Origin: Aureimonas sp. AU22
GTDB taxonomy: Bacteria; Pseudomonadota; Alphaproteobacteria; Rhizobiales; Rhizobiaceae
Assembly (NCBI RefSeq): GCF_001463745.1
Contig: NZ_BBWJ01000022.1
Coordinates: 1 to 64,000 of the forward strand
Reading direction: 5' to 3'
Length of the DNA stretch: 64,000 bases
Of the stretch, positions 5,483 to 48,723 are shown one piece after another. The position numbers and the translations under genes are program-made. Positions within the stretch are counted from its first letter, which is position 1. Each line of letters opens with the position of its first letter. Below the pieces are notes generated by a model. It saw only the letters and a list, made by a program, of their open reading frames with translations. It ran no database searches and was not told where the DNA came from.

Positions 5483-5584
5483 CGTGAGAACCCTTTGGTT
5501 GCTGCAAGGGTTCTCCATCTATACCCATGCAGCCCGGGTCGGAAGACGGCACACGAGCCACCCTCGGGCACAGGAATGATACGA
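5483..5584. promoter_or_regulatory. Divergent promoter region, NmrA-type reductase / HxlR regulator
   Basis: 102 bases between two divergent starts, which is the expected binding place of the HxlR protein. The stretch begins with GAGAACCCTTTGGTTGCTGCAAGG-like bases in which GGTT/AACC half-sites flank the NmrA-type start, but no perfect operator could be defined by eye. Confidence 0.4.
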
Positions 5585-6130: not shown

Positions 6131-6901
6131 CTAGATCGCGCGCGTCGCTCCGCCGTCGACGCGCAGCTTGGTGCCGGTGACGTAGGATGCCTGCTGCGAG
6201 GCGAGGAAGACCACGGCCGCCGCGAACTCGGCGGGCTGGCCGTAGCGTCCGGCGGGGATAGCGGCGATCGAGGCTTTCTGCACGGCCTCGACGCTGGTGC
6301 CGGAGCGCGTTGCGTTGGCCGCGTCGAGTTCGGCGAGCCGCGTCGTCTCGATGCGCCCGGGAAGCACGACATTGACGGTGACGCCGTCGCCCGCGACCTC
6401 CCCGGCCAGCGTCTTCGACCAGCCGACGACGGCGGCCCGGATGCCGTTGGACAGGGCGAGGTTCGCGATCGGCTGCTCGACGCCGGACGACGCCACCGTG
6501 ACGACGCGGCCCCAGCGGCGCTCGCGCATCGGCGGCAGGAGGCGTCCGGTGAGGTGGAAGAGGTTGGCGGCCATCGTCTCGAACTGCGCCAGCCAGATGC
6601 CGCGCGCCACCGACGCGGCCGGGCCGGGCGGGGGGCCGCCGGAATTGTTGACGAGGATGTCGACGCCGCCGTCCGCCAGGAGCCGGTCGGCCAAGGCGTC
6701 GATCGTGGCGACGTCCGAGAGATCGGCCGAGACGGCGGTCAGCCCCGCGATGCCGCCGCCCCAGGCCTCGATCGCCTCGGCGTTGCGGGCGACGGCGGTG
6801 ACCGCAACGCCCTCGGCGAGCAGCCCCTCGGCGATCGCGCGTCCGAGGCCGCGGCTCGCGCCCATGACGAGCGCGCGGCGGCCCGTGATTCCGAGATCCA
6901 T
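6131..6901 (-). CDS. SDR-family oxidoreductase (FabG-like, atypical active site)
   Basis: 256 residues. The glycine motif is MGASRGLGRAIAEGL (about 13-27), the NNSGGPPPG block is the NNAG equivalent, and the C-terminal GQPAEFAAAVVFLASQQASYVTGTKLRVDGG is typical of classical short-chain dehydrogenases. Where YxxxK is expected the chain reads NLALSNGIRAAVVGWSKTLA, so the catalytic tyrosine and lysine are not in the usual places; SSGVEQP keeps the serine. The start overlaps the stop of the preceding lyase gene by one base (TGATG). It is the last gene of the leftward catabolic operon. It probably reduces or oxidises a carbonyl released by the lyase; the exact substrate is unknown. Confidence 0.88.
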   Translation of the reverse strand: MDLGITGRRALVMGASRGLGRAIAEGLLAEGVAVTAVARNAEAIEAWGGGIAGLTAVSADLSDVATIDALADRLLADGGVDILVNNSGGPPPGPAASVARGIWLAQFETMAANLFHLTGRLLPPMRERRWGRVVTVASSGVEQPIANLALSNGIRAAVVGWSKTLAGEVAGDGVTVNVVLPGRIETTRLAELDAANATRSGTSVEAVQKASIAAIPAGRYGQPAEFAAAVVFLASQQASYVTGTKLRVDGGATRAI

Positions 6902-7821
6902 CAGTTCAACTCCTTCAGGCGCTGTTCCTGCCGCGCCACCAGCCGTTCGATGTCGGCGACCGTCTGCGGCGTGAGGCTGCCGCCCGGCCGACGCAGCGCG
7001 GCGCTCGCAATGATGCCGCGACGTGCCATGACATACTTGCGCACCGCAAGGCCGACGCCCGGCTGCTGCTCGAAGCGGGCGAGCGGGAGATAGGCGTCGA
7101 AGAGGTCGTGCGCACGCTCGACCTCGCCGGCCTGCATGTGCCGGACGACGTCCACCATCATCTCGGGATAGGCGAAGCCCGTCATCGCGCCGTCCGCGCC
7201 GCGTCCCATCTCCTCGGGCAGGAACATGCCGCCGTTGCCGCACAGGATCGAGATGCGTCGGTCGAGCGAGCCCTCGGCACGCAGCGCCGTGATCTTGTCG
7301 AGCCCCGGCCAGTCCTCGTGCTTGAGGCAGACGCAGGTCGGCAGATCGCGCACGATGCGCCGGATCACCGGCACCGACATCTGCACGTTGGTGACGAGCG
7401 GGAAGTCCTGCAGCACGAAGGGCACGTCGCCGGTGAACTCGGCGGCCTGCTGGTAGTAGGTGACGATCTGGTCGTCGGTGCGCAGCGCGCCGGGCGGCGC
7501 GATCATCACGCCCGCCGCGCCGTCGTCCATCACCATCTTCGTCAGCGCGGCCATCTGCGCGAAGCCCGCCGCCGAAACGCCGACCACCACCGGCACGCGG
7601 CCGGAGACGCGGGCGAGAATGCGCCGGACGACCGTCTGCGATTCCTCGATCGTCAGCTTCTGCGCCTCGCCCATCATCCCGAGCACGGTGAGCCCCGTGG
7701 CGCCGCAATCGAGGTAGAAGTCCACCATCCGATCGGTGCTTTCGAGATCCAGCGCCCCGTCGTCGCCAAACGGCGTGACGGCGATGACGTAGACGCCCTT
7801 CGCGCTTTCGTTCAGTCGCAT
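6901..7821 (-). CDS. Dihydrodipicolinate synthase/N-acetylneuraminate lyase family protein
   Basis: 306 residues from ATG 7821, which overlaps the racemase stop by one base (GTG 7824 is possible). This is a TIM-barrel class I aldolase: Schiff-base lysine K167 in CLKHED, and GMMGEAQKLT near 48-56 at the pyruvate-binding loop. The usual YNxP tyrosine motif is replaced by Q138-D139-F140-P141, so the proton-relay tyrosine of DapA/NanA is missing. This argues against true lysine biosynthesis. Operon context with racemase, amidohydrolase and SDR suggests a retro-aldol or dehydratase step on a 2-keto acid in a degradation pathway. Confidence 0.87.
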   Translation of the reverse strand: MRLNESAKGVYVIAVTPFGDDGALDLESTDRMVDFYLDCGATGLTVLGMMGEAQKLTIEESQTVVRRILARVSGRVPVVVGVSAAGFAQMAALTKMVMDDGAAGVMIAPPGALRTDDQIVTYYQQAAEFTGDVPFVLQDFPLVTNVQMSVPVIRRIVRDLPTCVCLKHEDWPGLDKITALRAEGSLDRRISILCGNGGMFLPEEMGRGADGAMTGFAYPEMMVDVVRHMQAGEVERAHDLFDAYLPLARFEQQPGVGLAVRKYVMARRGIIASAALRRPGGSLTPQTVADIERLVARQEQRLKELN

Positions 7822-8501
7822 CACCGGTGTTCTCCTTGGTTCTGTTGGGCGCGGGCCAGCGCCACGCGGCCGATGGCCATGGCGGCCGCGGCCTCGCAGG
7901 GTTCGATGACGGGTCTGCCGACCGCGTCCTCCAGCGCGGCCCGAAAGCGGGTCATGCCGGCGCAGCCGAGGATCAGGACGTCGGCGCCATGCGCATCGCG
8001 TAGAGTCCGCCCGACCTCCTGGAGGCGCCCGAAGGTCCGCGTCTCGTCGGTGAGTTCGGCGACGCCGAGTTCGAGGGGCAGGTCGGCGGCGAGGCGGTCC
8101 ATGACGCCCATGGCGCCGAGCATGCGCATGTGGCGCGGCACCGAGCGCTGGAGGATCGACAGGATGCCGAAGCGCTGGCCGACCGACATCGCCGTCAGGA
8201 TCGCGCTTTCCGCAATACCGAGCACCGGGCGACGGCTCTGCTCGCGCAGTGCGGCAAGACCGGGATCGGAGAAGCAGGCGACCACGAAGGCCGAGGCTTC
8301 GTCTTCCAGCGCTGCGGCGCGCCGGAGGAGCGGCGCGACGACGCCGTCGACATGGGCCTGGGTCTCGATCCCCTTCGGTCCCTCGTCGAGCTGGATCGCC
8401 GCGATCGGCACGGGGCTGGAGGCGCGTAAGCCGTCCATCGCCCGGTCGATGCCGGCCGTCACCACCTCGCTGGAATTCGGGTTGACGATGAAGATGGTCA
8501 T
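7821..8501 (-). CDS. Asp/Glu/hydantoin racemase family protein
   Basis: 226 residues. The two catalytic cysteines of the family are present: C76 in VVACFSDPG and C180 in LILGCAGM. The family uses them as acid/base pair on either side of the alpha carbon. NPNSS at the N-terminus and the P-x-I-E-P-x-E block near the C-terminus fit hydantoin racemase (HyuE/HyuA-type). It overlaps the amidohydrolase stop by four bases (ATGA). Together with the hydantoinase at 18.2 kb it would interconvert 5-substituted hydantoin enantiomers. Allantoin or aspartate racemase activity is an alternative within the family. Confidence 0.88.
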   Translation of the reverse strand: MTIFIVNPNSSEVVTAGIDRAMDGLRASSPVPIAAIQLDEGPKGIETQAHVDGVVAPLLRRAAALEDEASAFVVACFSDPGLAALREQSRRPVLGIAESAILTAMSVGQRFGILSILQRSVPRHMRMLGAMGVMDRLAADLPLELGVAELTDETRTFGRLQEVGRTLRDAHGADVLILGCAGMTRFRAALEDAVGRPVIEPCEAAAAMAIGRVALARAQQNQGEHR

Positions 8502-9961
8502 GGGCGCTTGCCCTCCGCGTCGGTTCGGGGATAGCGCGCCCGGCCCCAGAAGCCGTCCGGCAGCCCCAGCATGTCCTTCGCGCCGATCCGCGCGATCATC
8601 CGCTCGGCCTCGGCTTGCGCGTCGGCGAGGACGCCGGCCATGTCGGTGCGCACCGGCCGTCCGTTGCGCAACAGGACCTCGCCGCCGACCAGCACCGTGT
8701 CGACGTCGTTGCCGTTGGCGAAATAGGCGACGCGAAAGGGCTCCATGTTGGCGGGATAGAGATGCGGGCGCTGCATGTCGACGAGGATCAGGTCTGCCGC
8801 CTTGCCGGGCTCGAGCGAGCCGATCGCGTCGTCCATCCCGAGCGCCCTCGCCGCGTCGATCGTCACCATCTCCAGCGCCTTGCCCGGCGGCAGGACGCTC
8901 GCGTCGCGAAAATGCCGGCGATGGTAGTGCATGGCCTGCTGGACGTGGCGGAACATGTCGGCGGAGCGGTCCGGTGCCGTGGCGTCCGATCCGATCGCGA
9001 CGACCGCGCCCGCCTCGATCAGCTCGATCGCCGGGCAGCGGCCGAGGATTGAGGCGATGGCGCTCGGGTTGTGGGCGATCCGCGTCTGCGTTCGGGCGCA
9101 GAGCGCGATCTCGTCCTCGTCGATGTCGATGCAGTGGGAGAGAAGCGCATCGGGGCCGAGGAGGTCGAGAGCGGCCGCGCGGCGGATCGAGCCGCGCCAA
9201 TGGCCGTCCTGCGTGAACAGGAGGCCGTGCTCGCGCGAGGCGGCGCGCACGAGCCTGGCCTGCCGCAACGCCTCGGCATAGTCGGCCGGCGGCATCGCCG
9301 CCTCGTGCTCGTCGCGCAGCACGGGGTAGAGGAGGGCGAGGCTCACCGTGCCGCGCCCGTGCCAGTCCCGGATCAGGCTCCGGCACGTGTCCATCTGCTG
9401 CTCGAAGCTGACGGGATAGGGCAGGGGACGGTCGTGCGCGTCGCGCGTGGCGTAGGTGCGCGGATGCGGTGCGCGTGTCGGGCCGACGGCCACCACCGAG
9501 CGCGTGCCGATCTCCTCGACGCCCTCGCAATGGGCGGCGCCATAGGCGGGATCGTCCGTGCGCATGATCGTGTCGCCGCCGCCGAGCAGCGAGACGCCGC
9601 AGGTGACGCCGAAGCGCAGCCGCTCCATCGCGGCCAGCCGCGCTTCGGCGTACCAGAATTCCGGCGGCGATCCTTGCGTGTAGACCTCGCCGCAGATCCG
9701 CTCCCAATGGTCCCCCTGTTCCATGCCCATGGTCTTGATCAGACCGTGGCCGGCATGGGCGTGAACGTCGATGAGGCCCGGCAGCATCACCTGGCCCGCA
9801 GCATCGATCGTCCTGGCGGCGGGATGGCTCGCCGCGACATCCGCCCGTGGGCCGACGGCGACGATGCGGCCGGCCTCGATGGCCACCGCACCATCGGGGA
9901 TGACCCGGCGCGCGGCATCCATCGTGACGACGTGGGCGCCGGAGACGACGAGGTCAGCCAC
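8498..9961 (-). CDS. Amidohydrolase-superfamily deaminase/hydrolase (TrzN/SsnA/MtaD-like)
   Basis: 487 residues from GTG 9961, which lies inside the end of the upstream binding-protein gene (eight-base overlap). Metal ligands H67 and H69 are in LPGLIDVHAHAGH, a third histidine in SHCIDIDEDE, and the aspartate in IGSDATAPD. SLEPGKAADLILVDM near the C-terminus is typical of cytosine deaminase, SAH deaminase and s-triazine chlorohydrolase types. It removes an amino or other leaving group from a heterocycle or hydrolyses a cyclic C-N bond. Its place in this operon suggests action on the imported cyclic nitrogen compound. The true substrate is not readable from sequence. Confidence 0.88.
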   Translation of the reverse strand: MADLVVSGAHVVTMDAARRVIPDGAVAIEAGRIVAVGPRADVAASHPAARTIDAAGQVMLPGLIDVHAHAGHGLIKTMGMEQGDHWERICGEVYTQGSPPEFWYAEARLAAMERLRFGVTCGVSLLGGGDTIMRTDDPAYGAAHCEGVEEIGTRSVVAVGPTRAPHPRTYATRDAHDRPLPYPVSFEQQMDTCRSLIRDWHGRGTVSLALLYPVLRDEHEAAMPPADYAEALRQARLVRAASREHGLLFTQDGHWRGSIRRAAALDLLGPDALLSHCIDIDEDEIALCARTQTRIAHNPSAIASILGRCPAIELIEAGAVVAIGSDATAPDRSADMFRHVQQAMHYHRRHFRDASVLPPGKALEMVTIDAARALGMDDAIGSLEPGKAADLILVDMQRPHLYPANMEPFRVAYFANGNDVDTVLVGGEVLLRNGRPVRTDMAGVLADAQAEAERMIARIGAKDMLGLPDGFWGRARYPRTDAEGKRP

Positions 9962-11375
9962 GAAGCACCTGCGCCAGTCGCGTGACGTCGAGGACGGCGT
10001 CCTTCGGCAGCGTGAAGCCCGGATGATCCCCCCGCAGCCCCGTCACGCGGACCGGATTGTAGAGCGTCAGCCAGGCGGGATCGTGCTGCAGGACGCCGTA
10101 GGCCTGCGCGTAGATCGCGTCGCGCGCCGCCTCGTCCGTGGTTCGCCGCCCTCGGTCGATCAGGTCTTCGACCTCGGGGTTGTGGTAGCCCTCCCACCAG
10201 GACCCCTGGACCCGCGCATCGAGCTTCTCGACGAGGACGCGGTAGGTCGAGAGCGGGCTGGAATCGAACACGGCGAGGTCGCCGATCTCCTTGCGCCGCA
10301 CCTGATGGGCATAGGCCTCGCGGTCCTCGTGATAGGTGACGTCGAGGGCGACGCCGATGGCGGAGAGCTGGGTTCCGAGCGCCGCCGTGAGCCGCACCGC
10401 CTCGTCCGGCAGGCGGGTCGGGCAGGAGACCGTGAGGGTCAGCGCGCCGGGATGACCGGCCTCCGCCAGAAGGGCGCGCGCCGCCTCCAGATCGCGCGCG
10501 GGCGCCGGGTCGCGCCCGGCGCCGAAATGAACGGGGCTGACGAAGCCGTGGAGCGGCGTCGCGCCGCCGTCCATGACGTCGCGCACCAGCGCGTCGCGGT
10601 CGAGCGCCAGCGAGAGGGCACGGCGAAGGCGCGGGTCCCGAAGCGGACCGCGCGCGGCGTTCATCAGGAAGATGATGGCGACCGGATTGAGTGTCTCGAC
10701 CCGGGTCGTCCCGGGGCCGAGATCCCCTGCGAAGGGAAGGTTGGTCGCCACATCGGCCCTTCCGTCGTGCAGCGCCGCCAAGCGCGCCTCGGCATCCGGC
10801 ATCGCCTGAAATACGAGCGAAGGCCGCGCGCCGCCCGCAAGGGGACGAAGGCGCACCGACCCTTCCGACACGGCATCGACACGGTAGGGGCCGGTTCCCG
10901 CGATCGCCGCGACGTCGCCGGCATCCATCCGGCGCAGGCTGTCCGGCGAAGCGATGAAGCCCTGCACGAGGACGTCGAGGAGATCGGCCATCGGCTCGGC
11001 GAGATCGATCCGGAGGTCGAGCCCTTCGCCCGCGATCTCGGCGTCGCCGAGATACTGGCGCCAGACGGCGGGGGCGCCGAGCGTGTAGCCCTTGTCCTCG
11101 CGCGCCATGCGGCGGAGAGATTGCGCGGCGGCATCCGCATCGCAGCGGCTGGCGTCGTGGAACGTCGCGCCGTCGCGGAGGCGGAACCGCCAGCCGCGGG
11201 CGTCCGGCTCGACCGACCAGCTTTCGGCGAGGCCGGGAACGAAGCCGGCGTCGCCGCGCCGCACGAGCGTTTCGCAGATCGCCGAGAGAATCGACAGGTC
11301 GTCCGCCGCGTCGGTGCAGTCGTGCGGGTCGACGAGATCGGCCCGCCGCTGGAGAATGGTGACGGGCGGCGTCAT
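9954..11375 (-). CDS. Family-5 (peptide/nickel-type) ABC binding protein without signal peptide
   Basis: 473 residues. SBP_bac_5 features: FVPGLAESWSVEPDARGWRFRLRDGATFHDASRCDADAAAQSLRRM, AGTGPYRV, and HNPEVEDLIDRGRRTTDEAARDAIYAQAYGVLQHDPAWLTLYNP. Unlike the other family-5 protein of the operon, it begins directly with the mature fold (MTPPVTILQRRADLVDP). Codons before the ATG encode no hydrophobic segment. The start overlaps the stop of the ATPase gene (ATGA), which fixes it. It may stay in the cytoplasm as a ligand sink or chaperone, or be exported by an unrecognised route. Confidence 0.87.
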   Translation of the reverse strand: MTPPVTILQRRADLVDPHDCTDAADDLSILSAICETLVRRGDAGFVPGLAESWSVEPDARGWRFRLRDGATFHDASRCDADAAAQSLRRMAREDKGYTLGAPAVWRQYLGDAEIAGEGLDLRIDLAEPMADLLDVLVQGFIASPDSLRRMDAGDVAAIAGTGPYRVDAVSEGSVRLRPLAGGARPSLVFQAMPDAEARLAALHDGRADVATNLPFAGDLGPGTTRVETLNPVAIIFLMNAARGPLRDPRLRRALSLALDRDALVRDVMDGGATPLHGFVSPVHFGAGRDPAPARDLEAARALLAEAGHPGALTLTVSCPTRLPDEAVRLTAALGTQLSAIGVALDVTYHEDREAYAHQVRRKEIGDLAVFDSSPLSTYRVLVEKLDARVQGSWWEGYHNPEVEDLIDRGRRTTDEAARDAIYAQAYGVLQHDPAWLTLYNPVRVTGLRGDHPGFTLPKDAVLDVTRLAQVLRG

Positions 11376-12388
11376 GCGAGGTCCCTTTCCGGCTCGTCGG
11401 TCAAATGGCAGGCGACCGACCGGCCGCCGCCGGCATCGCGCAGCGCGGGCCGCTCGGTCCCGCAGCGCTCGAAGGCGAAGGGGCAGCGGGTGCGGAAGCA
11501 GCAGCCATCGGGAAGCGACAGGGCGCTCGGCACCTCGCCGGTCAGCGCGATTTCCGTCTTCGCGCGGGCCGGGTCGATGCTCGGCGCTGCCGACAGGAGC
11601 GCGCGCGTGTAGGGGTGGCGCGGACCTTGGAACAGGGTGTCGCGAGGGCCGATCTCGACGAGGAAGCCGAGATACATGACGCCGATCCGGTCGGCGATGT
11701 GATGCACCACCGACAGGTCGTGGCTGATGAAGAGATAAGCCAGCGCGAATTCGTCGCGCAGGTCCATCATCAGGTTGAGGATCTGCGCCTGCACGGAGAC
11801 GTCGAGCGCCGAGACCGGCTCGTCGGCGATGATGAGGCCGGGATTGACCGAGAGCGCGCGCGCGATGCCGATCCGCTGTCGCTGGCCGCCGGAAAACTGG
11901 TGGGGATAGCGACCGGCATGCTCGGCGTTGAGCCCGACCTTGGCGAGCAGCAAGGCGACGCGTTCGGCCACCTCGCGCGGGGCGAGCGTTCCTTGCGCGC
12001 GCAAGGGTTCGGCCACGATGTCGCGCACCTTCTGGCGCGGGTTCAGCGAGGCGAACGGGTCCTGGAAGATCATCTGCATCTTGGAACGGTGCGGCAGCAG
12101 CGCGCCTTGCGGCAGGGCGGCGATGTCCTGACCATCAAGCCGGATCGTGCCTGCGGTCGGCTCGTAGATGCGCGCCACGGACTTGGCGAGCGTGGACTTG
12201 CCGCAGCCGGACTCGCCGACGATCGCCAGCACCTCGCCCTTGGCGATCGACAGGCTCACCCCGTTGACCGCCTTCACCACGCGGTCCTCGAGGCGCAGAC
12301 GGCCGCCTCGCAGGCTGATGCGTTCGAGAAGGCCGGGGTTGAGGCTGAACTCCTGGCGAAGGTCGCGGACCTCGAGCATCGCCGTCAT
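11372..12388 (-). CDS. Oligopeptide-type ABC transporter ATPase (DppF/OppF-like)
   Basis: 338 residues. Walker A is GESGCGKST, Q-loop IFQDPFASLNPRQ, signature FSGGQRQRIGIARAL, Walker B LIIADEPVSALD and switch histidine FISHDLSVV. The C-terminal oligo_HPY extension (HPYTRALLSAAP...CCFRTRCPFAFERC) carries the four-cysteine pattern seen in Opp/Dpp ATPases. The start overlaps the DppD-type stop by four bases. It works as a heterodimer with the next ATPase to energise the two permeases of this operon. Confidence 0.93.
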   Translation of the reverse strand: MTAMLEVRDLRQEFSLNPGLLERISLRGGRLRLEDRVVKAVNGVSLSIAKGEVLAIVGESGCGKSTLAKSVARIYEPTAGTIRLDGQDIAALPQGALLPHRSKMQMIFQDPFASLNPRQKVRDIVAEPLRAQGTLAPREVAERVALLLAKVGLNAEHAGRYPHQFSGGQRQRIGIARALSVNPGLIIADEPVSALDVSVQAQILNLMMDLRDEFALAYLFISHDLSVVHHIADRIGVMYLGFLVEIGPRDTLFQGPRHPYTRALLSAAPSIDPARAKTEIALTGEVPSALSLPDGCCFRTRCPFAFERCGTERPALRDAGGGRSVACHLTDEPERDLA

Positions 12389-13401
12389 GCCGGGCCTCCC
12401 GCGGCAAGAGGAAAGTGACAGGCCGCGAGGCCCCCGCCCGGCTGCGGCAGGAGCTGCGGCTCGACGCTGGCGCACAAGGGTTGCGCGCGCGGGCAGCGGG
12501 CGCGGAAGGCGCAGCCTTCGGGCAGGTGGCGCACGTCCGGCACGGTGCCGGGGATCTGCCGCAGGCGGGGCTGACGGTGATCGGGGTCGGGAATCGAATC
12601 GATCAGTCCGCGGGTATAGGGATGGGCCGGCGCTTCCAGGATCTGCCGCACCGGGCCCGTCTCGACCACGCGTCCGCAATAGAGGACGGTCACCTTGTCG
12701 ACCATCTCGGCGACCACCGCGAGGTCGTGGGTGACGAGGATCAGCGAGGCACCCTGGTCGCGGATCTCGCGGCGCATGAGGCGCAGGATCTGCGCCTGGA
12801 TGGTGACGTCGAGCGCCGTCGTCGGTTCGTCGGCGATGATGAGACGGGGCTTGGCGAGCAGCGCGATGGCGATCACCACGCGCTGGCGCATGCCGCCGGA
12901 GAACTGGTGGGGATAGCTGTCCAGCCGCTCGGCCGCGCGCGAGATGCCGTTCGCCTCCAGCATCTCGATGCAGCGGGCACGCCGCGCCGCCTTGTCGAGA
13001 TCGGTGTGGAGGCGCAGCATCTCGTCCATCTGCCGGCCGATCGTCTGGACCGGGTTCAGCGAGGTCATCGGATCCTGGAAGATCATCGCGATCTCGCGCC
13101 CGCGGATCGCGCGCAGGCGCTTCTCCGATGCCTTGGCGAGGTCTTCGCCGCGGAACATGATCTCGCCGCCCTCGATCCTGCCCGGCGGGTCGATGAGGCC
13201 GAGCAGCGAGAAGCCGACGACGGACTTGCCGCCGCCCGACTCGCCGACGAGCCCCATGATCTCGCCGGCGCCCAAGTCGAAGCTGACGCCGTTCACCGCC
13301 TTCACGGTGCCGGAGAATGTGTGGAACCAGGTGCGCAGGTCGCGCACGGCAAGGAGGGGAGGGTGTTCGGCCCGGGGTTCGGGCGAGGGTCGGGAATGCA
13401 T
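12385..13401 (-). CDS. Oligopeptide-type ABC transporter ATPase (DppD/OppD-like)
   Basis: 338 residues. Walker A is [10 protein letters not shown]-loop [14 protein letters not shown], signature [15 protein letters not shown], Walker [13 protein letters not shown] and H-loop VTHDLAVV. The C-terminal [51 protein letters not shown] is the oligo_HPY region. It starts nine bases after the permease stop and overlaps the next ATPase gene. It is the partner of the DppF-like subunit. Confidence 0.93.
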
Positions 13402-13409
13402 GGCCAACC

Positions 13410-14285
13410 CTATTTCAGCCGGGGATTGAGTTCGTCGCGCAGGAAGTCGCCGACGAGATTGATGCCGAACACCATCGCCATGATCATCAGGCCGGGGAAC
13501 AGGGAGGTCCACCAGAGGCCGGAGAAGAGGACGTCGAAGCCGTTCTTGATGAGAAGGCCGAGCGAGGGCTGGGTGACCGGCACGCCGACGCCGAGGAAGC
13601 TGAGCGAGGCCTCGATCAGGATGAAGGTGCCGACCTGCACCGTCGCCACCACGATCAGCGGGGTCAGGACGTTGGGCAGGATGTGGCGGCGGATGATCGG
13701 CCCGGTGCGAAGGCCGGCGACGCGCGCCGCCTGGACGTATTCGCGGTTGCGCTCGCCGAGCGTCGAGCCGCGCACCGTGCGGGCGTAGACGACCCAGCCG
13801 ACGGCGGTCAGCGAGATCAGGATCTTGTCGATGCCCGTACCGAAGGCCGACATCAGGAACAGCGCGATCAGCATGGACGGGAACGACAGCTGGATGTCGG
13901 CGACACGCATGATCACGGCGTCGATCCAGCCCCCGAAGTAGCCCGCCATGAGGCCGAGGAAGGTGCCGATGACGCAGGACATCAGCGTCGCGGCGAGCCC
14001 GATCAGGGCCGAGATGCGCGTGCCGTAGACGACGGCCGCCAGCACGTCGCGGCCCTGCCCGTCGGTGCCGAGCCAGTATTTCGGATTGCCGCCGTCCATC
14101 CAGGCGGGCGGCAGGTAGCTGTCCATCAGGTCGAGTTGCATGACGTCGTAGGGGTTCTGCGCCACCAGCGCGGGGCCGAACACGACGATGAAGGCGCACA
14201 CGAGGATAATCGCGGATCCGACGATGGCGGAGGCGTTGCGCCGCCAGTTGTGGGCGAGCTGCGAGGAAAGGAGGCCCGTCGTCAT
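13410..14285 (-). CDS. Peptide-type ABC transporter permease (DppC-like)
   Basis: 291 residues. The N-terminal anchor span (AIVGSAIILVCAFIVVFGPAL) and OppC_N region precede the LGTDGQGRDVLAAVVYGTRISAL signature, then come five further spans. The EAA loop EYVQAARVAGLRTGPIIRRHILPNVLTPLIV contacts the ATPase. The last stretch LMIMAMVFGINLVGDFLRDELNPRLK is typical of DppC. It is one base from the upstream permease gene. Confidence 0.93.
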   Translation of the reverse strand: MTTGLLSSQLAHNWRRNASAIVGSAIILVCAFIVVFGPALVAQNPYDVMQLDLMDSYLPPAWMDGGNPKYWLGTDGQGRDVLAAVVYGTRISALIGLAATLMSCVIGTFLGLMAGYFGGWIDAVIMRVADIQLSFPSMLIALFLMSAFGTGIDKILISLTAVGWVVYARTVRGSTLGERNREYVQAARVAGLRTGPIIRRHILPNVLTPLIVVATVQVGTFILIEASLSFLGVGVPVTQPSLGLLIKNGFDVLFSGLWWTSLFPGLMIMAMVFGINLVGDFLRDELNPRLK

Positions 14286-14286
14286 C

Positions 14287-15252
14287 TCAGCGCACCGTGA
14301 TCCGGGGGTCGATGACCGTGTAGAGAAGGTCGATCACGAAGTTGATGACCACGAAGATCAGCGCGACCAGCATGAGGTAGACGACGATCACCGGGCGGTC
14401 GGCGCGGTAGATGCTGTCGATCAGGAGCTTGCCCATGCCGGGCCAGGCGAAGATCGTCTCGGTGATGGTGGCGAAGGCGATGAGATCGCCGAGCTGCAGG
14501 CCGAAGATCGTCACCACCGGGATCAGCGCGTTGCGCAGGCCGTGCCCGTAGAGGACCTGGGATCGCGAGGCGCCCTTGGCCCGGGCGAATTTCATGTAGT
14601 CCTGCCGCGTCACCTCCATCATGCCAGCGCGCGTGATGCGCAGGAGGATGGCGAGCGTGCCGACCGAGAGCGTGACGGCGGGCAGGACGATGTGCTGCCA
14701 GCCCGACCAGGTGGCGAGCGAGGTCTCGATGCCGAGGACGGTGCCGACCGCGCCGCGCCCCGAGGAGGGAAAGATCCGGTACTCCACCGCCAGCACCCAG
14801 ATCAGCATCATCCCCACCCAGAAGCCGGGCAGCGAGACGCCGAGCAGCGAGCCGGACATGATGAGCCGCGACAGGGGCTTGCCGGGATTGGCCCCGGCAT
14901 AGACGCCGAGCGGGATCGCCACGACGGTGGCGATACCCATGGCGACGACGACGATCTCCATCGTCGCCGGCAGGCGTTCCAGGATCAGCGAGAAGGCCGG
15001 CTGGCGGAACACGTAGGACAGGCCGAGGTCCCCCTGAAGGAGGCCCTTCAGGAAGATGCCGTACTGGACGAGCAGCGTCTGATCGAGGCCGAGGATGCGG
15101 CGGGCCTGCTCGATCTCGGCCTGCGTGGCATCGATCGGGACGACCATGAAGACGGGGTCGCCGGTGAAGGTCGTCATCAGGAAGACGATGACCGAAACCG
15201 CCCAGAGCACGACGAGCGTCTGGATCAGCCGTCTGACCGTGAATGCGAACAT
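14287..15252 (-). CDS. Peptide-type ABC transporter permease (DppB-like)
   Basis: 321 residues. It opens with the DppB hallmark RRLIQTLVVLWAVSVIVFLMTTFTGDP, then GLDQTLLVQYGIFLKGLLQGDLGLSY. Six spans follow, with the EAA loop YMKFARAKGASRSQVLYGHGLRNALIPVVTI. It forms the heterodimeric channel with the DppC-like protein. It lies 61 bases downstream of the binding-protein gene, so it is probably on the same transcript. Confidence 0.93.
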   Translation of the reverse strand: MFAFTVRRLIQTLVVLWAVSVIVFLMTTFTGDPVFMVVPIDATQAEIEQARRILGLDQTLLVQYGIFLKGLLQGDLGLSYVFRQPAFSLILERLPATMEIVVVAMGIATVVAIPLGVYAGANPGKPLSRLIMSGSLLGVSLPGFWVGMMLIWVLAVEYRIFPSSGRGAVGTVLGIETSLATWSGWQHIVLPAVTLSVGTLAILLRITRAGMMEVTRQDYMKFARAKGASRSQVLYGHGLRNALIPVVTIFGLQLGDLIAFATITETIFAWPGMGKLLIDSIYRADRPVIVVYLMLVALIFVVINFVIDLLYTVIDPRITVR

Positions 15253-15313
15253 GAGGGATGCCCTTCAACCGGAGCCGGGACGCGGCACGCGCGCCCGGGC
15301 GATCGGCAAGTCC

Positions 15314-16885
15314 TTACTCGGCGACGTCCATCTCGTAGGCCCAGATGAACTTGTCGACGCGCGGCTCGAAGGTGACCGTGTCGCGCGAGGCGTAGATGTC
15401 CTGCTCGTAGTGGATCGGGATCATCGGGATGTCGGCGAGAAGAAGCTTGGTCGCCTCCTGCAGATGGGCGTCGCGCTCCTCGACCTTGGCAGTCGAGTCC
15501 GCCTTGTCGAGGAGGGCGTCGACCTCCGGGTTCGAGTAGCTCGTCCGGTTCACCTCGCCGTAGCCCGGCTTCTTGTCGCGGCTGTAGTAGAGCGAGTTGT
15601 ACATCGAGCCGGCATCGCCGGACGGCACGTCCCAGCCGGACATGATCATGCTGGAGTTCGGCGAGGGCGTGCGGATGTAGCCCCAGAAGTTCGATTTCGG
15701 CATCAGGTTGAGCTTCAGCTGGATGCCGATCTTGCCGAGCATCGAGGTCAGCGCCTGGGCGACCTGCGCGTCGTTGACGTAGCGGTTGTTCGTGGCGTCG
15801 AGCGTCACCGCGAAGCCGTCGGCGACGCCCGCCTCCGCCATCAGCGCCTTGGCGCGCTCGAGATCGAACGGGTACATCTGACGGAAGTCGGCGCCCTCGA
15901 CATAGCCGAGGTGCGATTCCGGCACGAACTGCGCGGACGGGGTCGCCAGCCCGTTCATGATGACGCGGTCGATGGCGGCGACGTCGATCGCGCGGGCCAT
16001 CGCCTCGCGCACGCGCCGGTCGGTCATCGGGTTTTTGCCGGTGATGGTCGGCGAGGCCTCGCGCACGTCGAGCGCCAGGAGGATGTTGAGAAGGCTCGGT
16101 CGCGTCTCGACCGTGACGCCGCTTTCCGCCTTCACGCGGTCGATGTCGCGCACCGCCAGGTCCTGCACCACGTCGAGCTCGCCGGTCAGAAGCGCGGCGG
16201 TGCGCGTGGCGGGGTTGGTGATCGGGCGGAACACCACCGTGTCGATCTTCGCCTTGCCGCCGTAGTAGTCGGGGAAGGCTTCCAGCGTCAGCCGGTCTTC
16301 CTTGGCCCACTGCTTCAGGCGATAGGGGCCGGTGCCCATGGGCTTGAGGCCGAGCTCGGCGTCGCCGACCTTCTTGGTGTAGGCCTCGTTGAGGATCAGG
16401 ATCGCGGCGAGGTCGTTGGGCAGGGCGGCATAGGGGCCGGGCGTCGCGATCTCGACCGTGCGATCGTCCACCGCCTTGGCGCTCGCGATGTTGGCCGAGA
16501 GATTGGACATGACCGAGGCCTTGAGCCGATCGATCGTGAACACGACGTCGGAGGCCTTCAGCGTCTCGCCGTTGTGGAACTTGACCCCCTCGCGGAGCTT
16601 GAAGACCCAGGTCTTGTCGTCCTTCTGCGACCAGCTTTCGGCAAGGCCCGGCCCGAACTTCAGGTCCTTGTCGCGCCGCACCAGCGGGTCGTAGAGGTGG
16701 TAGAACATGATGTTGCTCGACAGTTCCTCGCCCGCCTGCGGGTCGAGGATCGTCGGGTCCGAGGTCAGGCCGATCGTCACCTCCTTCGCGTCCGCCGCGG
16801 TGGCGAAGGCCAGGGGCGCGAGGGGAAGGGCGGCGGCCAGCGCCGCGCCGGCGAGCAGGCAACGGATCGATCGATGCAGGGTCAT
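15314..16885 (-). CDS. Family-5 periplasmic ABC binding protein
   Basis: 523 residues. A signal peptide spans about 1-33 (RCLLAGAALAAALPLAPLAFATAADA). Mature SBP_bac_5 fold follows: SDPTILDPQAGEELSSNIMFYHLYDPLVRRDKDLKFGPGLAESW, then FKLREGVKFHNGETLKASDVVFTIDR. ATG 16885 is preceded by AGGAGG at good distance. It is the delivery protein of the peptide-type transporter encoded just downstream. This family binds peptides, glutathione, opines, nickel or other polar compounds, so the ligand is open; the enzyme set points to a cyclic amide or related nitrogen compound. Confidence 0.92.
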   Translation of the reverse strand: MTLHRSIRCLLAGAALAAALPLAPLAFATAADAKEVTIGLTSDPTILDPQAGEELSSNIMFYHLYDPLVRRDKDLKFGPGLAESWSQKDDKTWVFKLREGVKFHNGETLKASDVVFTIDRLKASVMSNLSANIASAKAVDDRTVEIATPGPYAALPNDLAAILILNEAYTKKVGDAELGLKPMGTGPYRLKQWAKEDRLTLEAFPDYYGGKAKIDTVVFRPITNPATRTAALLTGELDVVQDLAVRDIDRVKAESGVTVETRPSLLNILLALDVREASPTITGKNPMTDRRVREAMARAIDVAAIDRVIMNGLATPSAQFVPESHLGYVEGADFRQMYPFDLERAKALMAEAGVADGFAVTLDATNNRYVNDAQVAQALTSMLGKIGIQLKLNLMPKSNFWGYIRTPSPNSSMIMSGWDVPSGDAGSMYNSLYYSRDKKPGYGEVNRTSYSNPEVDALLDKADSTAKVEERDAHLQEATKLLLADIPMIPIHYEQDIYASRDTVTFEPRVDKFIWAYEMDVAE

Positions 16886-16944
16886 CAGGTCCTCCTCCAG
16901 GTGGTGTCTTGCCGGCGTTCGCCGCGTCGTGTCGGGGCGTGGGT

Positions 16945-17337
16945 TCAGTCCAGCGCGGACTGAACCTCGATCTGGTAGCCTTCGGGGTCGTCGAAGACGA
17001 AGGCGCGGATCCTCAGCGCCGCGCTGTCCTTCGGCTCGGTGAGGCCTGCGACGCCATGCGTGCTCACATGGGCATGCCAGGCATCGACGTCGGGCACGCG
17101 GATGCAGAGCTGCACGGGCTTGGGGTCGCTGGCGCGGTGCATGCCGCGCGTTTCGTCGACGAGGCCGACATGGGCCGCGCCGGTGATGCGGTAGATCTTC
17201 GACCAGCCCTGGTCGATGGCGAGCTCGAAGCCGAGGACGCTCTCGTAGAAGGCCACGGCACGATCGAGGTCGCGATAGTAGAGAAACGTGATCCCGAGGC
17301 TCGGCCCTTCCGGCCGCGCGGTGAACTCTCCGGTCAT
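16945..17337 (-). CDS. VOC-family (glyoxalase/dioxygenase fold) protein
   Basis: 130 residues from ATG 17337, with GAGAGGGGG as ribosome site. The two beta-alpha-beta-beta-beta modules are visible: ITFLYYRDLDRAVAFYESVLGFEL and VQLCIRVPDVDAWHAHVSTHGV...AFVFDDPEGYQIEVQ. The C-terminal glutamate of EVQ is the usual metal ligand, but the N-terminal histidine of glyoxalase I is not obvious. It is the first gene after the TGTATAC-bearing promoter and probably co-transcribed with the transporter (59-base gap). It may be an isomerase or dioxygenase of the pathway; the role is unproven. Confidence 0.83.
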   Translation of the reverse strand: MTGEFTARPEGPSLGITFLYYRDLDRAVAFYESVLGFELAIDQGWSKIYRITGAAHVGLVDETRGMHRASDPKPVQLCIRVPDVDAWHAHVSTHGVAGLTEPKDSAALRIRAFVFDDPEGYQIEVQSALD

Positions 17338-17373
17338 CGATTCCCCCTCTCGTATGCTGTCGATATCCAAACG

Positions 17374-17379
17374 GTATAC
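17374..17379. promoter_or_regulatory. GTATAC site before the VOC/transporter operon (putative GntR operator)
   Basis: GTATAC within the minus-strand context TGTGTATACCG, 37 bases before the VOC start. The same TGTATAC core stands in the GntR/hydantoinase divergent region (18175-18182). Both copies follow a TTGCCA on the minus strand. FCD-type GntR proteins often bind TNGTATACNA-like palindromes, so the regulator at 17.4-18.1 kb is the likely ligand. Confidence 0.5.
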
Positions 17380-17428
17380 ACAGAAAATGGCAAGAGGATT
17401 CTATGCTGCCCTGCAGCATGCCGTCGGG

Positions 17429-18088
17429 TCAGAACAGGCGCGACAGGTGACCGAGGATCGCGGCGCGGGCGTTGTCGATATGGCGCAGCATCGCCGCCTC
17501 GGCGCGCTGCGGATCGCGGGCGAGGATCGCATCCACGATCGCGATATGCTCGTGGCATCCCGGTTCGAAACGCTCGGGAATCGAGCCGTTGTCGAAGATG
17601 CGCGTCTTCAGCTTCAGGCCCTTGACGAGGTCGGTCAGGAGAGCGGAGCCTGCCGTTCGCGCGATCAGCGTGTGGAAGTCCTCGTCGAACTGGGCGTAGT
17701 CCGCAACGCTCGGGCGCTCGCCCTCCAGATATTGCGCCAGCCGCTTGCGCATGGCGAGGAACGGCTCCGGCGAGACGTTCACGCCGGCGGCCTGGCGCGC
17801 CGTCTCGCCTTCCAAAAGCCGCCGGACATGGAGGATCTCCATGATCTCGGTCACCGAGATGCGGCTCACCGTCGGCACCCCGCCGCCGCCGTTTCGGGTG
17901 ACCAGCCCCTCGCTCGTCAGCTTGGCCACCGCCTCGCGCACAGGGGTGCGCGAGACGCCGAGGCGCTCGGCGAACAGCTTCTCCTGCAACGGCGTGCCGG
18001 CCGGCAGTTCGCCCGCGAGGATCATCGCCTTCAGGCGATCGTGCACCGATTGCCCCAGCGTCTGCGCCGTCGTGGATTTGAGGCTCAT
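17429..18088 (-). CDS. GntR-family regulator, FCD subfamily
   Basis: 219 residues. The winged helix (about 12-75) includes VHDRLKAMILAGELPAGTPLQEKLFAERLGVSRTPVREAVAKLTSEGLV. The all-helical FCD ligand domain contains DEDFHTLIARTAGSALL and the metal-type residues D/H with the late GCHEHIAIVDAI histidines. It is divergent from the hydantoinase gene and lies just upstream of the VOC/transporter operon on the same strand. It is expected to repress both sides until an intermediate binds. Confidence 0.9.
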   Translation of the reverse strand: MSLKSTTAQTLGQSVHDRLKAMILAGELPAGTPLQEKLFAERLGVSRTPVREAVAKLTSEGLVTRNGGGGVPTVSRISVTEIMEILHVRRLLEGETARQAAGVNVSPEPFLAMRKRLAQYLEGERPSVADYAQFDEDFHTLIARTAGSALLTDLVKGLKLKTRIFDNGSIPERFEPGCHEHIAIVDAILARDPQRAEAAMLRHIDNARAAILGHLSRLF

Positions 18089-18174
18089 GATCGCTCCTTC
18101 GCCTCGCGCCTTTGCGCCTGCATATGCCATGGATCCATGCTCGCCGTCATCGACGGTTTCCGGTTGCGCGACAG

Positions 18175-18193
18175 TGTATACATTGGGTATCCC
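18175..18193. promoter_or_regulatory. TGTATACA operator and adjacent GGGTATCCC palindrome
   Basis: TGTATACA (18175-18182) is a perfect 8-base palindrome, followed after two bases by GGGTATCCC (18185-18193), a second inverted repeat. Both lie in the 138-base region between the divergent GntR and hydantoinase starts. The first matches the core before the VOC gene. Placement and symmetry fit a GntR/FCD operator; binding is inferred. Confidence 0.55.
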
Positions 18194-18226
18194 TTGGCAA
18201 GAAGCCGGTCGATACGGGAGGGTGCG

Positions 18227-19663
18227 ATGCTGGACGTTCTGATCGAAGGCGGACGCGTGGTGACGGCCGACGGCTCGTTCGACGCGGACGTCGGCATCGT
18301 CGGCGAGCGCATCGTCGCGGTCGGGCCCGATCTCGGCGAGGCCGGGCGCCGGATCGACGCGCGCGGCCGCCTGGTGATGCCGGGCGGGGTCGACACCCAC
18401 TGCCATGTCGAGCAGATCTCCGGCGCCGGGTTGATGAACGCCGACACGTTCGAGAGCGCGACGCGCTCGGCGCTGCACGGCGGCACCACCAGCATCGTCT
18501 CCTTCGCCGCCCAGCACCCCGGCAAGCGGCTGCGCACCGTGGTCGACGACTACGCCGCGCTCGCTGCGCGCGGCGCCATGATCGACCACGCCTTCCACAT
18601 GATCGTGTCGGACGTCTCGGGCGAGAACCTCGTGCGCGACCTGCCCGAACTCATCGGCGAAGGGCATCGCTCGATCAAGATCTTCACCACCTACGACAAG
18701 GTGCGCCTCGGCGACGAGGACATCCTCGACGTCCTCTGGGCGGCGCGGGCTGGCGGGGCGCTGGTCTGCTTCCACGCCGAGAACGACGGCCTGATCCGCT
18801 GGATGACGCGGCGCCTGACCGCGAGCGGGCGCACCGAACCGCGTTTCCATCCCCTGTCGCACCCACGTGCCGCCGAGGTGGAGGCCCTGTCGCGCATGTG
18901 CGTCTTTTCCGAATTCACCGGCCAGCCCATCATGCTGTTCCACGTCTCGACGCGCGAGGGCGTGGAGATCGTCCGTGCGGCGCGGACGCGCGGCGTTCCG
19001 GTCGTCGCCGAGACCTGCCCGCACTACCTGTTCATGACCGGAGACCAACTCGACGCGCCGGGCCGCGACGTCGCCGGCCTGATGTGCAGTCCGCCGCAGC
19101 GCCGCGCCGACGACCAGGACGCGCTCTGGGCGGGACTGGGCGACGGGACCCTCGAGGTCGTCTCCTCCGATCACGCGCCCTATCGCCTGGACCGGAGCGG
19201 CAAATTCGCCAACGGTGCGGATGCCCCCTTCAACCGGATCGCGAACGGGATGCCGGGCCTCGAGGTTCGCCTGCCGCTCATGTTCGACGCCATGGTCAGC
19301 CGCGGCCGCCTCGGGCCCGAGAAGTTCGTGGAACTGACGGCGACCGCTCCGGCCGCGATCTTCGGCCTGTCGGCGAAAGGGCGGATCGCGGTCGGGGCCG
19401 ACGCCGACATCGCCATCTGGAATCCCGACGCTCGTGTCACATTCGCGGCCGACGACCTCCACGACAACACGGGATACAATCCGTTTGCGGGGCGCAGCGT
19501 CACGGGATGGCCGGAAACCGTCCTGTCGAGGGGAGAGGTCGTCCTCTCGCAGGGCGCTTGCCTCGCAGCCCCCGGGCGGGGGCGCCGGATCGCGATGCAG
19601 CGCTCCGACGCCATGCAGGCGAGAAGCGGGGCCGAAGCGGACCGACTGGACCACGGCGCGTAG
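18227..19663 (+). CDS. D-hydantoinase/dihydropyrimidinase family protein
   Basis: 478 residues from ATG 18227 with GGGAGGG ahead of it. All binuclear-metal ligands are present: H58/H60 (DTHCH), K151 in SIKIFTTYD (the carboxylated lysine), H183 (FHAEND), H239 (LFHVST) and D315 (SSDHAPY). The family opens five- or six-membered cyclic amides (hydantoins, dihydropyrimidines, allantoin-like rings) to N-carbamoyl acids. It is divergent from its likely GntR regulator, and the racemase of the leftward operon complements it. No N-carbamoylase gene is seen nearby. It lacks the extra C-terminal tail that animal enzymes carry. Confidence 0.9.
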   Translation: MLDVLIEGGRVVTADGSFDADVGIVGERIVAVGPDLGEAGRRIDARGRLVMPGGVDTHCHVEQISGAGLMNADTFESATRSALHGGTTSIVSFAAQHPGKRLRTVVDDYAALAARGAMIDHAFHMIVSDVSGENLVRDLPELIGEGHRSIKIFTTYDKVRLGDEDILDVLWAARAGGALVCFHAENDGLIRWMTRRLTASGRTEPRFHPLSHPRAAEVEALSRMCVFSEFTGQPIMLFHVSTREGVEIVRAARTRGVPVVAETCPHYLFMTGDQLDAPGRDVAGLMCSPPQRRADDQDALWAGLGDGTLEVVSSDHAPYRLDRSGKFANGADAPFNRIANGMPGLEVRLPLMFDAMVSRGRLGPEKFVELTATAPAAIFGLSAKGRIAVGADADIAIWNPDARVTFAADDLHDNTGYNPFAGRSVTGWPETVLSRGEVVLSQGACLAAPGRGRRIAMQRSDAMQARSGAEADRLDHGA

Positions 19664-19794: not shown

Positions 19795-21378
19795 ATGCAC
19801 CCGACCGAGATCTTCGAGCTCGTCTTCATCCTGCTGCTGGCGATCCTGATCCTGCATTGGCTGGCCGGCCGCGCCGGCCTGCCAGCGTCGGTCGCGCTGC
19901 TGATCGGCGGCGGTGCGCTCGCCTTCGTGCCCGGACTGCCTGCGATCGAGCTCGATCCGGAACTGGTGCTCGTCCTGTTCCTGCCGCCCCTCCTGATGGA
20001 CGGCGCGTACTTCACCGCGATCGCCCCCTTCCGGCGCCAGATCGCCGGCATCCTGTCGCTCGCCGTTGGCGCGGTCGTCTTCACGACGCTCGTCGTCGGG
20101 CTCGCCGTGCACTGGCTCGTTCCCGGCCTGCCCTGGGCGGCCTGTTTCGCGCTCGGCGCCATCGTCTCGCCGCCCGACGCCGTGTCCGCACGCGCGGTGC
20201 TCCAACGTGTCCGGCTGCCGCGGCGGCTGACGACCCTGCTCGAAGGCGAGAGCCTGCTGAACGACGCAAGCGGCCTCGTCCTCTTCCGCTTCGCCGTTGC
20301 CGCCGCCCTGACCGGGTCCTTCGACGCCGTGGACGCGGGCATGCAGTTCGCCTGGCTCGCCGTCGGCGGCATCATCGTCGGCGGGCTGATCGGCGGTCTC
20401 TGGATGGTCATCCTGCATCGCCTGCGCGACGACATGCTGACCACCGCCGCTTCGCTCATCCTGTGCTGGGCCGCCTACCTCGGGGGAGAGGCGCTGCACG
20501 TCTCGGGCGTGATCTCCACGGTCACCGCCGGCCTCGTCTTCGGCTGGTACCAGCACGTCGTCTTCACCGCGGGCGTGCGTATCCGCAGCAGCGCCTTCTG
20601 GCACGTCATGGTGTTCCTGTTCGAGGCGATGATCTTCATCCTGATCGGCCTGTCGCTTCGCGGCGTTCTGGAGCGCGTGGGAGGGTTCGAGGTCGTCCTG
20701 TCGACCATGGCGGTGCCGGTCGCCGGCATCATCGTCGCGATGACGCTCGCCCGCTTCGCCTGGGTGTTCGGCTGCGACGCCGCTGTCGCCGCCCTTCGTC
20801 GGCTGACGCCGTCGTCGGCCATGCCGCTGGGGTCCGGGAGCGCCTTCGTTCTGAGCTGGGCGGGGATGCGCGGCGTGGTGACGCTCGCCGTCGCCCTGAC
20901 GGTGCCGGAGACGATGCCGGGCCGCGATCTGATGCTGGTGGCGGCCTTCGCCGCCATCCTCGTCACCGTCCTCTTCCAGGGCACGACGCTCGGCCTCGTG
21001 ATCCGCGCCGCCGGACTGACCGATCGCGGCGTTCGCCCGCCTTTGTCGCTCGGCGAGGCCGAGGCCGCGGTGGCGCGGGCGCAGCTCGGCGCCGTCGCGG
21101 CGCGCGCCCATGCGCCGGACGGCACGCTCGTTCATCCGCGTCTTCTGGATACCTACACGCGGCGAGCCGAACAGACGGCAAACTACATGGGCAACGAGGA
21201 CACCTTCGGCCCGGCGATCATGGAGCACTTCGACATCGTCGTCGATGCCGTGAAGGCGGGACGGATGGAACTCGTGCGGCTTCACCGGGCGCACCAGATC
21301 GACGACGAGACGCTGCACGACCTCGAACGGGATCTCGACCTCGAGGAGCTCGCGGCGCGAGCGGCGATGACGGTGTGA
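19795..21378 (+). CDS. CPA1-family Na+/H+ (or K+/H+) antiporter
   Basis: 527 residues with about 12 membrane spans in the first 400 residues. Family signatures include LVLVLFLPPLLMDGAYFTAI, the ion-site block ALGAIVSPPDAVSARAVL (the PDA aspartate) and LLEGESLLNDASGLVLFRFAVAA, then SWAGMRGVVTLAVALTVPE. The hydrophilic tail of about 110 residues is probably regulatory. It is in inner membrane pH and cation homeostasis. It starts 131 bases after the hydantoinase stop and looks independent. Confidence 0.92.
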   Translation: MHPTEIFELVFILLLAILILHWLAGRAGLPASVALLIGGGALAFVPGLPAIELDPELVLVLFLPPLLMDGAYFTAIAPFRRQIAGILSLAVGAVVFTTLVVGLAVHWLVPGLPWAACFALGAIVSPPDAVSARAVLQRVRLPRRLTTLLEGESLLNDASGLVLFRFAVAAALTGSFDAVDAGMQFAWLAVGGIIVGGLIGGLWMVILHRLRDDMLTTAASLILCWAAYLGGEALHVSGVISTVTAGLVFGWYQHVVFTAGVRIRSSAFWHVMVFLFEAMIFILIGLSLRGVLERVGGFEVVLSTMAVPVAGIIVAMTLARFAWVFGCDAAVAALRRLTPSSAMPLGSGSAFVLSWAGMRGVVTLAVALTVPETMPGRDLMLVAAFAAILVTVLFQGTTLGLVIRAAGLTDRGVRPPLSLGEAEAAVARAQLGAVAARAHAPDGTLVHPRLLDTYTRRAEQTANYMGNEDTFGPAIMEHFDIVVDAVKAGRMELVRLHRAHQIDDETLHDLERDLDLEELAARAAMTV

Positions 21379-23239: not shown

Positions 23240-23482
23240 GTGTCTGCGCTTGCTCCATGCTGATGGAAGGCACGCATACCCGGTCCTGACCTTTCGTGCA
23301 CGAAGTTTCGGCTCAAACCGGGAACGGATGTCTGCGGTGTCGCGGACAGTGCGGGAATCACCCGATGGCGAGGACCGGGAGCGAGGTTGTCCACCGTCTC
23401 CTCGGCGGAGGCGGGAACCGATGGCCGGGAAACGACTTAGCCCTCGATCGATCTGTCCTGGAAGCCCGCCGGTGAAGACGCC

Positions 23483-23788
23483 ATGCCTCACAGAAGCCAC
23501 CTCCCGTTAGCGGTGACCTACGCCACGGAGCGTGACCTCGAAGCCTTGTCGCCGGAGCAACTCGCCGGGTTGCTCGACGAATGCCATCGCTGGTTCGACA
23601 ACATGGACGCGTTTCAGAGCGCGATCCGTACCGAGGCGGGCCGCACGGAGTGGAGCGTCCTCACCCGCAAGGACGTCGCCGAGGCGACCGCCGCAAGGGA
23701 GCGGGTTCGCAACGAGATCGATCGACGGCACCGGGATCTCTTCGACCAGCTCGGCGCCGTCGACGTCGATCCGATCGATCAGCGGTAG
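23483..23788 (+). CDS. Small hydrophilic protein of unknown function
   Basis: 101 residues, charged and predicted helical (ERDLEALSPEQLAGLLDECHRWFDNMDAFQSAIRTEAGRTEWSVL...ATAARERVRNEIDRRHRDLFDQLG). Codon use matches neighbours (mostly G/C in third position), which supports translation. There is no membrane segment or known domain. It is divergent from the LOV kinase gene with about 240 bases between. I do not recognise the family. Confidence 0.5.
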   Translation: MPHRSHLPLAVTYATERDLEALSPEQLAGLLDECHRWFDNMDAFQSAIRTEAGRTEWSVLTRKDVAEATAARERVRNEIDRRHRDLFDQLGAVDVDPIDQR

Positions 23789-45585: not shown

Positions 45586-45781
45586 GCGCGCTCCCATTCT
45601 GGAGCACTTCCCCTACGCCAAGCCGCGCGTCGAGGACAGGGTCTATGCGGCCGCCGGGCCGCCGTGCGGGAGCCCGCCGCGGTCTTCGGGATCCGTCCGC
45701 GACGCTGCGGCCTGGTCGTTCGGATGTCCGTCGCTGATGACATTCCGGGAAAGTTGCGCTTTCCTGTCTTCGACGGATAAT

Positions 45782-48722: not shown

Positions 48723-48723
48723 C

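Follow-up and report, generated by a model that had tools for sequence, protein, structure and literature searches.

Why would a single regulator govern a complete peptide-type importer, a second gene of the binding-protein type and a set of ring-opening enzymes, and what kind of compound would such a cluster handle? The question is raised by positions 6131-19663 of a 64,000-nt stretch of Aureimonas sp. AU22 (contig NZ_BBWJ01000022.1; below, the window, part of a 4.63 Mb genome). The original prediction, made from the sequence of this stretch, described the segment as a GntR-controlled island for uptake and catabolism of a cyclic nitrogen compound, comprising about twelve genes on the leftward strand and, divergent from them, a hydantoinase. 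That layout is confirmed by open reading frames (ORFs), codon-position composition, Pfam and translations, from which the genes were called, with start codons being our choices (Table 1). Our answer, which we hold with about even confidence, is that the island may be a two-part regulon under GntR control with which the cell takes up and breaks down a cyclic ureide or amide, and in which a protein of solute-binding-protein fold (SBP2) would work in the cytoplasm. What is new is the conserved arrangement of otherwise known families, and the unexpected element is SBP2.

The island recurs beyond the window. Surveys with its AtzA-like amidohydrolase (AH) gave matches in 16 of 289 sampled genomes of the class, the window's own included (E ≤ 1e-40), and in 68 plasmid records (1e-60). 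The island is carried by plasmids of Sulfitobacter alexandrii, S. faviae, Labrenzia and Microvirga, and by an Ensifer adhaerens plasmid lacking gene annotation. A further 21 AH loci were read; in 10 of them AH adjoins permeases that are 44-49% identical to the OppB-type protein of the window, and the rest of the island is absent; L028 and L049 among these AH loci also have a racemase, and L028 a hydantoinase. The SBP2 sequences of the window and of five plasmids were aligned for a scan of 84,980 species genomes, which found 69 loci, all alphaproteobacterial by title except one metagenome-assembled genome labelled Acidobacteria; since the loci were picked via SBP2, the scan is silent on how frequent the other genes are without it. 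The closest matches to the window's SBP2 carry Aureimonas titles (85-86% identity). Genes of the window-type importer adjoin SBP2 at 58 of these loci, and 11 have none. Full flanks are present at 46 loci, excluding the partial SBP2 matches L113 and L120 that are counted among the 69, and 41 of the 46 have the importer. All nine genes for the VOC protein, the importer's binding protein (SBP1), both permeases, both ATPases, SBP2, AH and the DapA-like enzyme (dapA) are found in 37 of the 41. The exceptions are L058, L063 and L107, without a linked dapA but with one elsewhere in the genome (67, 66 and 56%), and L078, without AH. Two loci, L056 and L106, were left out of genome-wide searches, and an all-against-all clustering of ORFs was dominated by shadow ORFs and not informative.

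Two forms of the island can be told apart. The window-type form, with the hydantoinase gene hydA and the window's gntR type, accounts for 26 of the 41 importer loci, and both gene order and strand are kept in all 26, an arrangement beyond chance; the original prediction had named a gene order conserved nowhere as the outcome that would speak against it. A racemase lies inside the operon in 24 of the 26 and the SDR gene in 22 (L058 and L063 have neither, L072 and L118 no SDR). In the second form (11 of 41), a different GntR protein, a racemase 40-46% identical to the window's and a cyclic amidohydrolase precede the VOC gene, and the inside racemase is missing from all 11. Racemase and ring-opening enzyme are thus exchanged jointly, which suggests that both act on one compound and fits racemisation coupled to ring opening. 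The cyclic amidohydrolase of the second form is nearest to the hydantoin-5-propionate amidohydrolase ErtD, raising the idea of a hydantoin-propionate or thiohydantoin-like compound related to ergothioneine catabolism. We find this highly improbable, as that enzyme stays under the ErtD cut-off (485.3 versus 600 bits) and the window's hydA reaches only 237.2 of 650 and 188 of 600 bits on two ErtD models.

A common regulatory sequence joins the parts. At loci with the window's gntR type, GTATAC is present in 40 of 40 gntR-VOC gaps and in 33 of 33 hydA-gntR gaps, counts that overstate independence because the loci share descent. Dinucleotide-shuffled gaps gave mean GTATAC counts of 0.45 and 0.98, respectively, with a maximum of 3, and the control gaps (VOC-SBP1 and SBP1-permease) have it in 0 of 78. 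The whole window holds just two copies, both in these gaps, and the consensus over 40 sites reaches past the hexamer. In second-form gaps, TAGTATACTA is common to only 5 of 16. With GTATAC in both gaps, the hydantoinase and the operon look like one GntR regulon, in line with the regulator's proposed control of the island; GntR is predicted to bind at GTATAC, and would act as a repressor. The same data bear on whether the island might be an importer for peptides or opines whose accompanying enzymes are only loosely associated and do not form one pathway. The closest matches to SBP1 are indeed binding proteins for peptides, glutathione and opines, and the three importer loci without linked dapA and the one without AH point the same way; the conserved order, the common operator and the joint exchange of racemase and amidohydrolase make this distinctly unlikely.

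SBP2 had been taken as a second binding protein, and this part of the original prediction did not hold up. We judged its export signal by the distance from start codon to a conserved motif. The nearest SBP2 start lies 8-16 residues before the motif in all 75 sequences (69 loci, five plasmids and the window), whereas in 55 SBP1 sequences the furthest start within 60 codons precedes that protein's anchor by 39-57 residues. No start codon is found 26-60 codons upstream of the SBP2 motif in 53 of the 75, the window among them, where the open frame contains no ATG, GTG or TTG upstream. A 12-residue hydrophobicity score above 1.6 did not separate the two proteins (26 of 75 SBP2, 47 of 55 SBP1), because a helix of the mature domain gets picked up. 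Structures were predicted for a set of 37 SBP2 and 28 AH rows from the 69 loci, the window and the plasmids; the SBP2 model (mean predicted local distance difference test score 90.4) matches whole periplasmic binding proteins at a template modelling (TM) score of about 0.83 (5u4o), so that SBP2 is predicted to have a complete binding-protein fold. That fold, the position of the gene between an importer ATPase and AH, and, at 22 of the 75 loci, a possible start 26-60 codons ahead of the motif would agree with an ordinary periplasmic protein with a missed start or unusual export route, which would leave the island as a plain importer that has two binding proteins and accompanying enzymes. We consider this unlikely, given that 53 loci have no such start and that some genomes have SBP2 but not this importer. 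As its export signal is not visible and it occurs without the importer, SBP2 should not be regarded as a further binding protein of the periplasm; it is probably cytoplasmic, and offers a clean case for asking if a binding-protein fold was reused inside the cell.

The importer-free loci were followed in 10 of their 11 genomes, L106 being the one left out. Here the best SBP1 match is 38% identical, versus 67-97% in cluster loci, and AH is in none of the 10 genomes, although the same query matched 16 class genomes. A dapA at 57-67% is present in 9 of the 10, versus 41 of 385 class genomes at an equal E-value (1e-60). Seven of the 11 loci adjoin a second module (a hydantoinase, a cysteine-desulfurase-like enzyme and an amino-acid ABC, that is ATP-binding cassette, transporter) or its transporter; 9 of the 10 genomes carry the second-module enzyme (51-61%), and among 20 island genomes searched, 10 have it (49% or higher).

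The enzymes point to the substrate class through their families. HydA passes the NCBIfam D-hydantoinase cut-off (500.8 versus 393.25 bits), and its nearest solved structure is the D-hydantoinase 1nfg. The metal ligands of D-hydantoinase/dihydropyrimidinase are HxH, Lys, His, His and Asp, and all of these motifs are present across 34 sequences, so the enzyme is metal-complete as had been read. In hydantoin/allantoin racemases two cysteines are catalytic; the island's racemase has both in 40 of 40 sequences, likewise as described. Among solved structures it matches an allantoin racemase and putative hydantoin racemases, and a PuuE-like protein (a weak model match) adjoins SBP2 in L095, which could suggest a variant allantoin or purine-ureide pathway. 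This is very unlikely in our view: hydA falls well short of the allantoinase cut-off (249.1 versus 357.85 bits) yet passes that of D-hydantoinase, and no allantoate or ureidoglycolate enzyme is seen among the 13 genes.

Motif comparison also bore out the atypical active sites noted for the lyase and the SDR. Canonical DHDPS has Thr-Thr and Tyr motifs; the DapA-like enzyme has GMMGEA and VLQDFPL instead (each exact in 57 of 60), retains the lysine motif in 60 of 60, and stays below the NCBIfam dapA cut-off (107.5 versus 206.15 bits). It is nearest to 3dz1, then to L-2-keto-3-deoxyarabonate dehydratase, and its QD-x-P motif, also found in the latter, hints at a 2-oxo acid as substrate. The SDR protein has SNGxR in 47 of 48 sequences and SNTIR in one, in place of the Tyr-x3-Lys of classical SDRs; its solved relative 5va8 also has SNGxR. 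AH best matches AtzA in both structure (4v1x, TM 0.79, 28% identity) and sequence. In TRZ/ATZ amidohydrolases the third metal histidine is followed by an acid; where relatives have this histidine, AH has FTQDGH in 58 of 60 sequences and FTQDGY in two, the alignment being uncertain there. The VOC protein is conserved in 58 sequences and annotated as VOC in plasmid relatives.

The enzymatic core also occurs apart from the importer. In genomes that carry dapA away from SBP2, four loci (L214-L217) have hydA (58-60%), VOC (57-61%), racemase (54-58%) and dapA (62-66%) as an operon in this order, so that the island appears modular, with a core that can exist without importer and AH. L213 has VOC and dapA, L218 and L219 dapA alone, and L220 is a second dapA copy adjoining another hydantoinase and racemase.

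From these elements we propose the following route. SBP1, the two permeases and the two ATPases would import the compound, and AH would carry out a first hydrolytic change. In the core, the racemase would interconvert the enantiomers, the hydantoinase would open the ring, and the DapA-family enzyme could cleave or dehydrate a 2-oxo acid through its lysine, with the VOC and SDR proteins acting in further steps. SBP2, non-exported, would most simply be a cytoplasmic carrier or sensor of an intermediate. The substrate class, a cyclic ureide or amide, is suggested by the enzyme families. With operator, importer and downstream enzymes all in one conserved regulon, this becomes a direct question, namely which compound binds SBP1 and induces the regulon.

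Several observations weigh against this route, besides the shared descent behind the operator counts and the 22 SBP2 genes for which a longer start is possible. Four of the 41 importer loci (L070, L077, L107 and L115) match neither form. The unusual sites of AH, the DapA-like enzyme and the SDR mean that the reactions of their families may not apply. At 16 other dapA loci (L197-L212), a racemase is nearby in four (L197, L198, L202 and L206) and a cyclic amidohydrolase in four (L197, L198, L202 and L210), the remaining loci having neither; taken as a whole, the DapA-like family shows no specificity for the core. Moreover, six of the 385 genomes in the class sample match SBP2 at E < 1e-170, while the 26 remaining matching genomes do no better than about 1e-60, as ordinary binding proteins do, and four of the six have no dapA at 1e-60 (only G000 and G335 are among the 41 dapA genomes). 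These four SBP2 proteins are 49-53% identical, with the motif likewise near the start, and within 20 kb of them there is no island-type importer, AH, racemase or dapA; one of the four genomes, G107, has AH elsewhere. Hence the SBP2 family is wider than this pathway, and a link between SBP2 and dapA, which seemed general in 9 of 10 importer-free genomes, was rejected as such on finding it in 2 of 6 in the class sample. Within the window's family, SBP2 is in 2 of 81 sampled genomes, its own included, and absent from the one other sampled genome of the genus, indicating patchy inheritance.

A broader and more tentative reading, which we regard as possible though doubtful, is that SBP2 founds a family with the binding-protein fold whose members are no longer exported and have taken on a cytoplasmic role in catabolism, often with a small VOC protein nearby, either as an enzyme or as an intracellular carrier of an unstable intermediate. 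In L121:1186-8685 and L122:3453-10537, a distant SBP2-like gene (34%, short N-terminus) and a VOC gene (43%) are adjacent, so the pairing may be old; the pair comes after an ABC importer, with a rhodanese-like protein preceding and an FGE-sulfatase-domain protein following.

The second module is also present in the window, at 45569-52138 (+), as a GntR/FCD regulator, a family-3 binding protein, a permease, an ATPase, a class-V aminotransferase-fold enzyme and a second hydantoinase, the last 68% identical to that of L116. Its relatives adjoin SBP2 in importer-free loci and are also found on plasmids, from Deinococcus to Polaromonas; on the Polaromonas plasmid pE10SP1 (L123), second-module genes are accompanied within 25 kb by ureidoglycolate lyase, a ring-opening enzyme of the AtzD/TrzD type, a racemase and a PuuE-like protein. 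A role of this module in the catabolism of pyrimidines (pyd) or allantoin was rejected, the aminotransferase-fold protein of L116 passing the cut-off of a cysteine-desulfurase-like family.

Table 1. Features of the island, with positions in the window
Feature	Position	Strand	Basis
SDR-family protein, SNGxR replacing usual Tyr-x3-Lys	6131..6901	-	Pfam; motif; solved relative 5va8
DapA/DHDPS-family enzyme, lysine retained	6901..7821	-	Pfam; nearest solved structure 3dz1
Asp/Glu/hydantoin racemase, both cysteines	7821..8501	-	Pfam; 40/40 conservation
AH: AtzA-like amidohydrolase, FTQDGH motif	8498..9961	-	Pfam, sequence and structure matches
SBP2: solute-binding-protein family 5 fold, no visible signal peptide	9954..11375	-	Pfam, model
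ABC ATPase, oligopeptide C-terminal region	11372..12388	-	Pfam
ABC ATPase, oligopeptide C-terminal region	12385..13401	-	Pfam
ABC permease (OppC/DppC type)	13410..14285	-	Pfam
ABC permease (OppB/DppB type)	14287..15252	-	
SBP1: solute-binding protein family 5, signal-like N-terminus	15314..16885	-	
VOC-superfamily protein	16945..17337	-	Weak glyoxalase I and weak 2qnt matches; conserved
Predicted GntR operator core GTATAC, gntR-VOC gap	17374..17379	no strand	
gntR: GntR/FCD regulator	17429..18088	-	
Predicted GntR operator core GTATAC, hydA-gntR gap	18176..18181	no strand	
hydA: hydantoinase/dihydropyrimidinase, divergent	18227..19663	+	D-hydantoinase model, metal motifs, 1nfg

The statement that most junctions overlap by 1-8 bases is just correct: 6 of the 11 overlap, by 4, 4, 8, 4, 1 and 1 bases, and the five gaps measure 91, 59, 61, 1 and 8 bases. 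The flanks look unrelated, with an NmrA-like protein (4568-5518) on one side and a sodium/proton exchanger (19795-21378) and an HWE histidine kinase with PAS domains (21755-23500) on the other. A further DHDPS-family gene lies at 57119-58039 (-), near a family-1 binding protein (55037-56371).

No account of this gene set or of SBP2 was found in the open literature, which is weak evidence of novelty as most subscription papers fell outside the search; the open papers compared were PMC3546935, PMC6015842, PMC9602780 and PMC4016543. The purine route of the last was set aside, since it describes a carbamoyltransferase and its main text has no occurrence of a racemase or an ABC transporter. The importer is complete, as had been claimed, and shares SBP1, two permeases and two ATPases with Opp/Dpp-type ABC importers; unlike these, the island's operon has a second, signal-less family-5 protein. 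With exported family-5 proteins SBP2 has the fold in common but not the export signal. About 1% of proteins with SBP-type Pfam signatures are predicted to be cytosolic (PMC9602780), and the accessible text of that paper describes no family-5 case resembling SBP2. AH has its fold in common with the AtzA/TRZ-ATZ hydrolases, from which it differs at the FTQDGH or FTQDGY stretch. The DapA-like enzyme is similar over its full length, QD-x-P motif included, to 3dz1 and L-2-keto-3-deoxyarabonate dehydratase, whereas the gene context differs. By Pfam, no N-carbamoylase is among the 13 island genes; a carbon-nitrogen hydrolase query had no match in the window's genome at 1e-20, without a positive control and with M20-type carbamoylases elsewhere not searched. 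The absence that had been pointed out therefore stands for the island, but not as a universal feature, because carbon-nitrogen hydrolases, possible N-carbamoylases, lie near some relatives. Classical hyu clusters, according to the sections of PMC3546935 consulted, likewise combine a hydantoinase, a hydantoin-type racemase and a transporter. The island shares the hydantoinase with them, differs in having no carbamoylase in its 13 genes, and adds AH, VOC, DapA-like, SDR and SBP2 proteins; with the carbamoylase missing it is not a classical hyu cluster but, as originally predicted, a system distinct from it.

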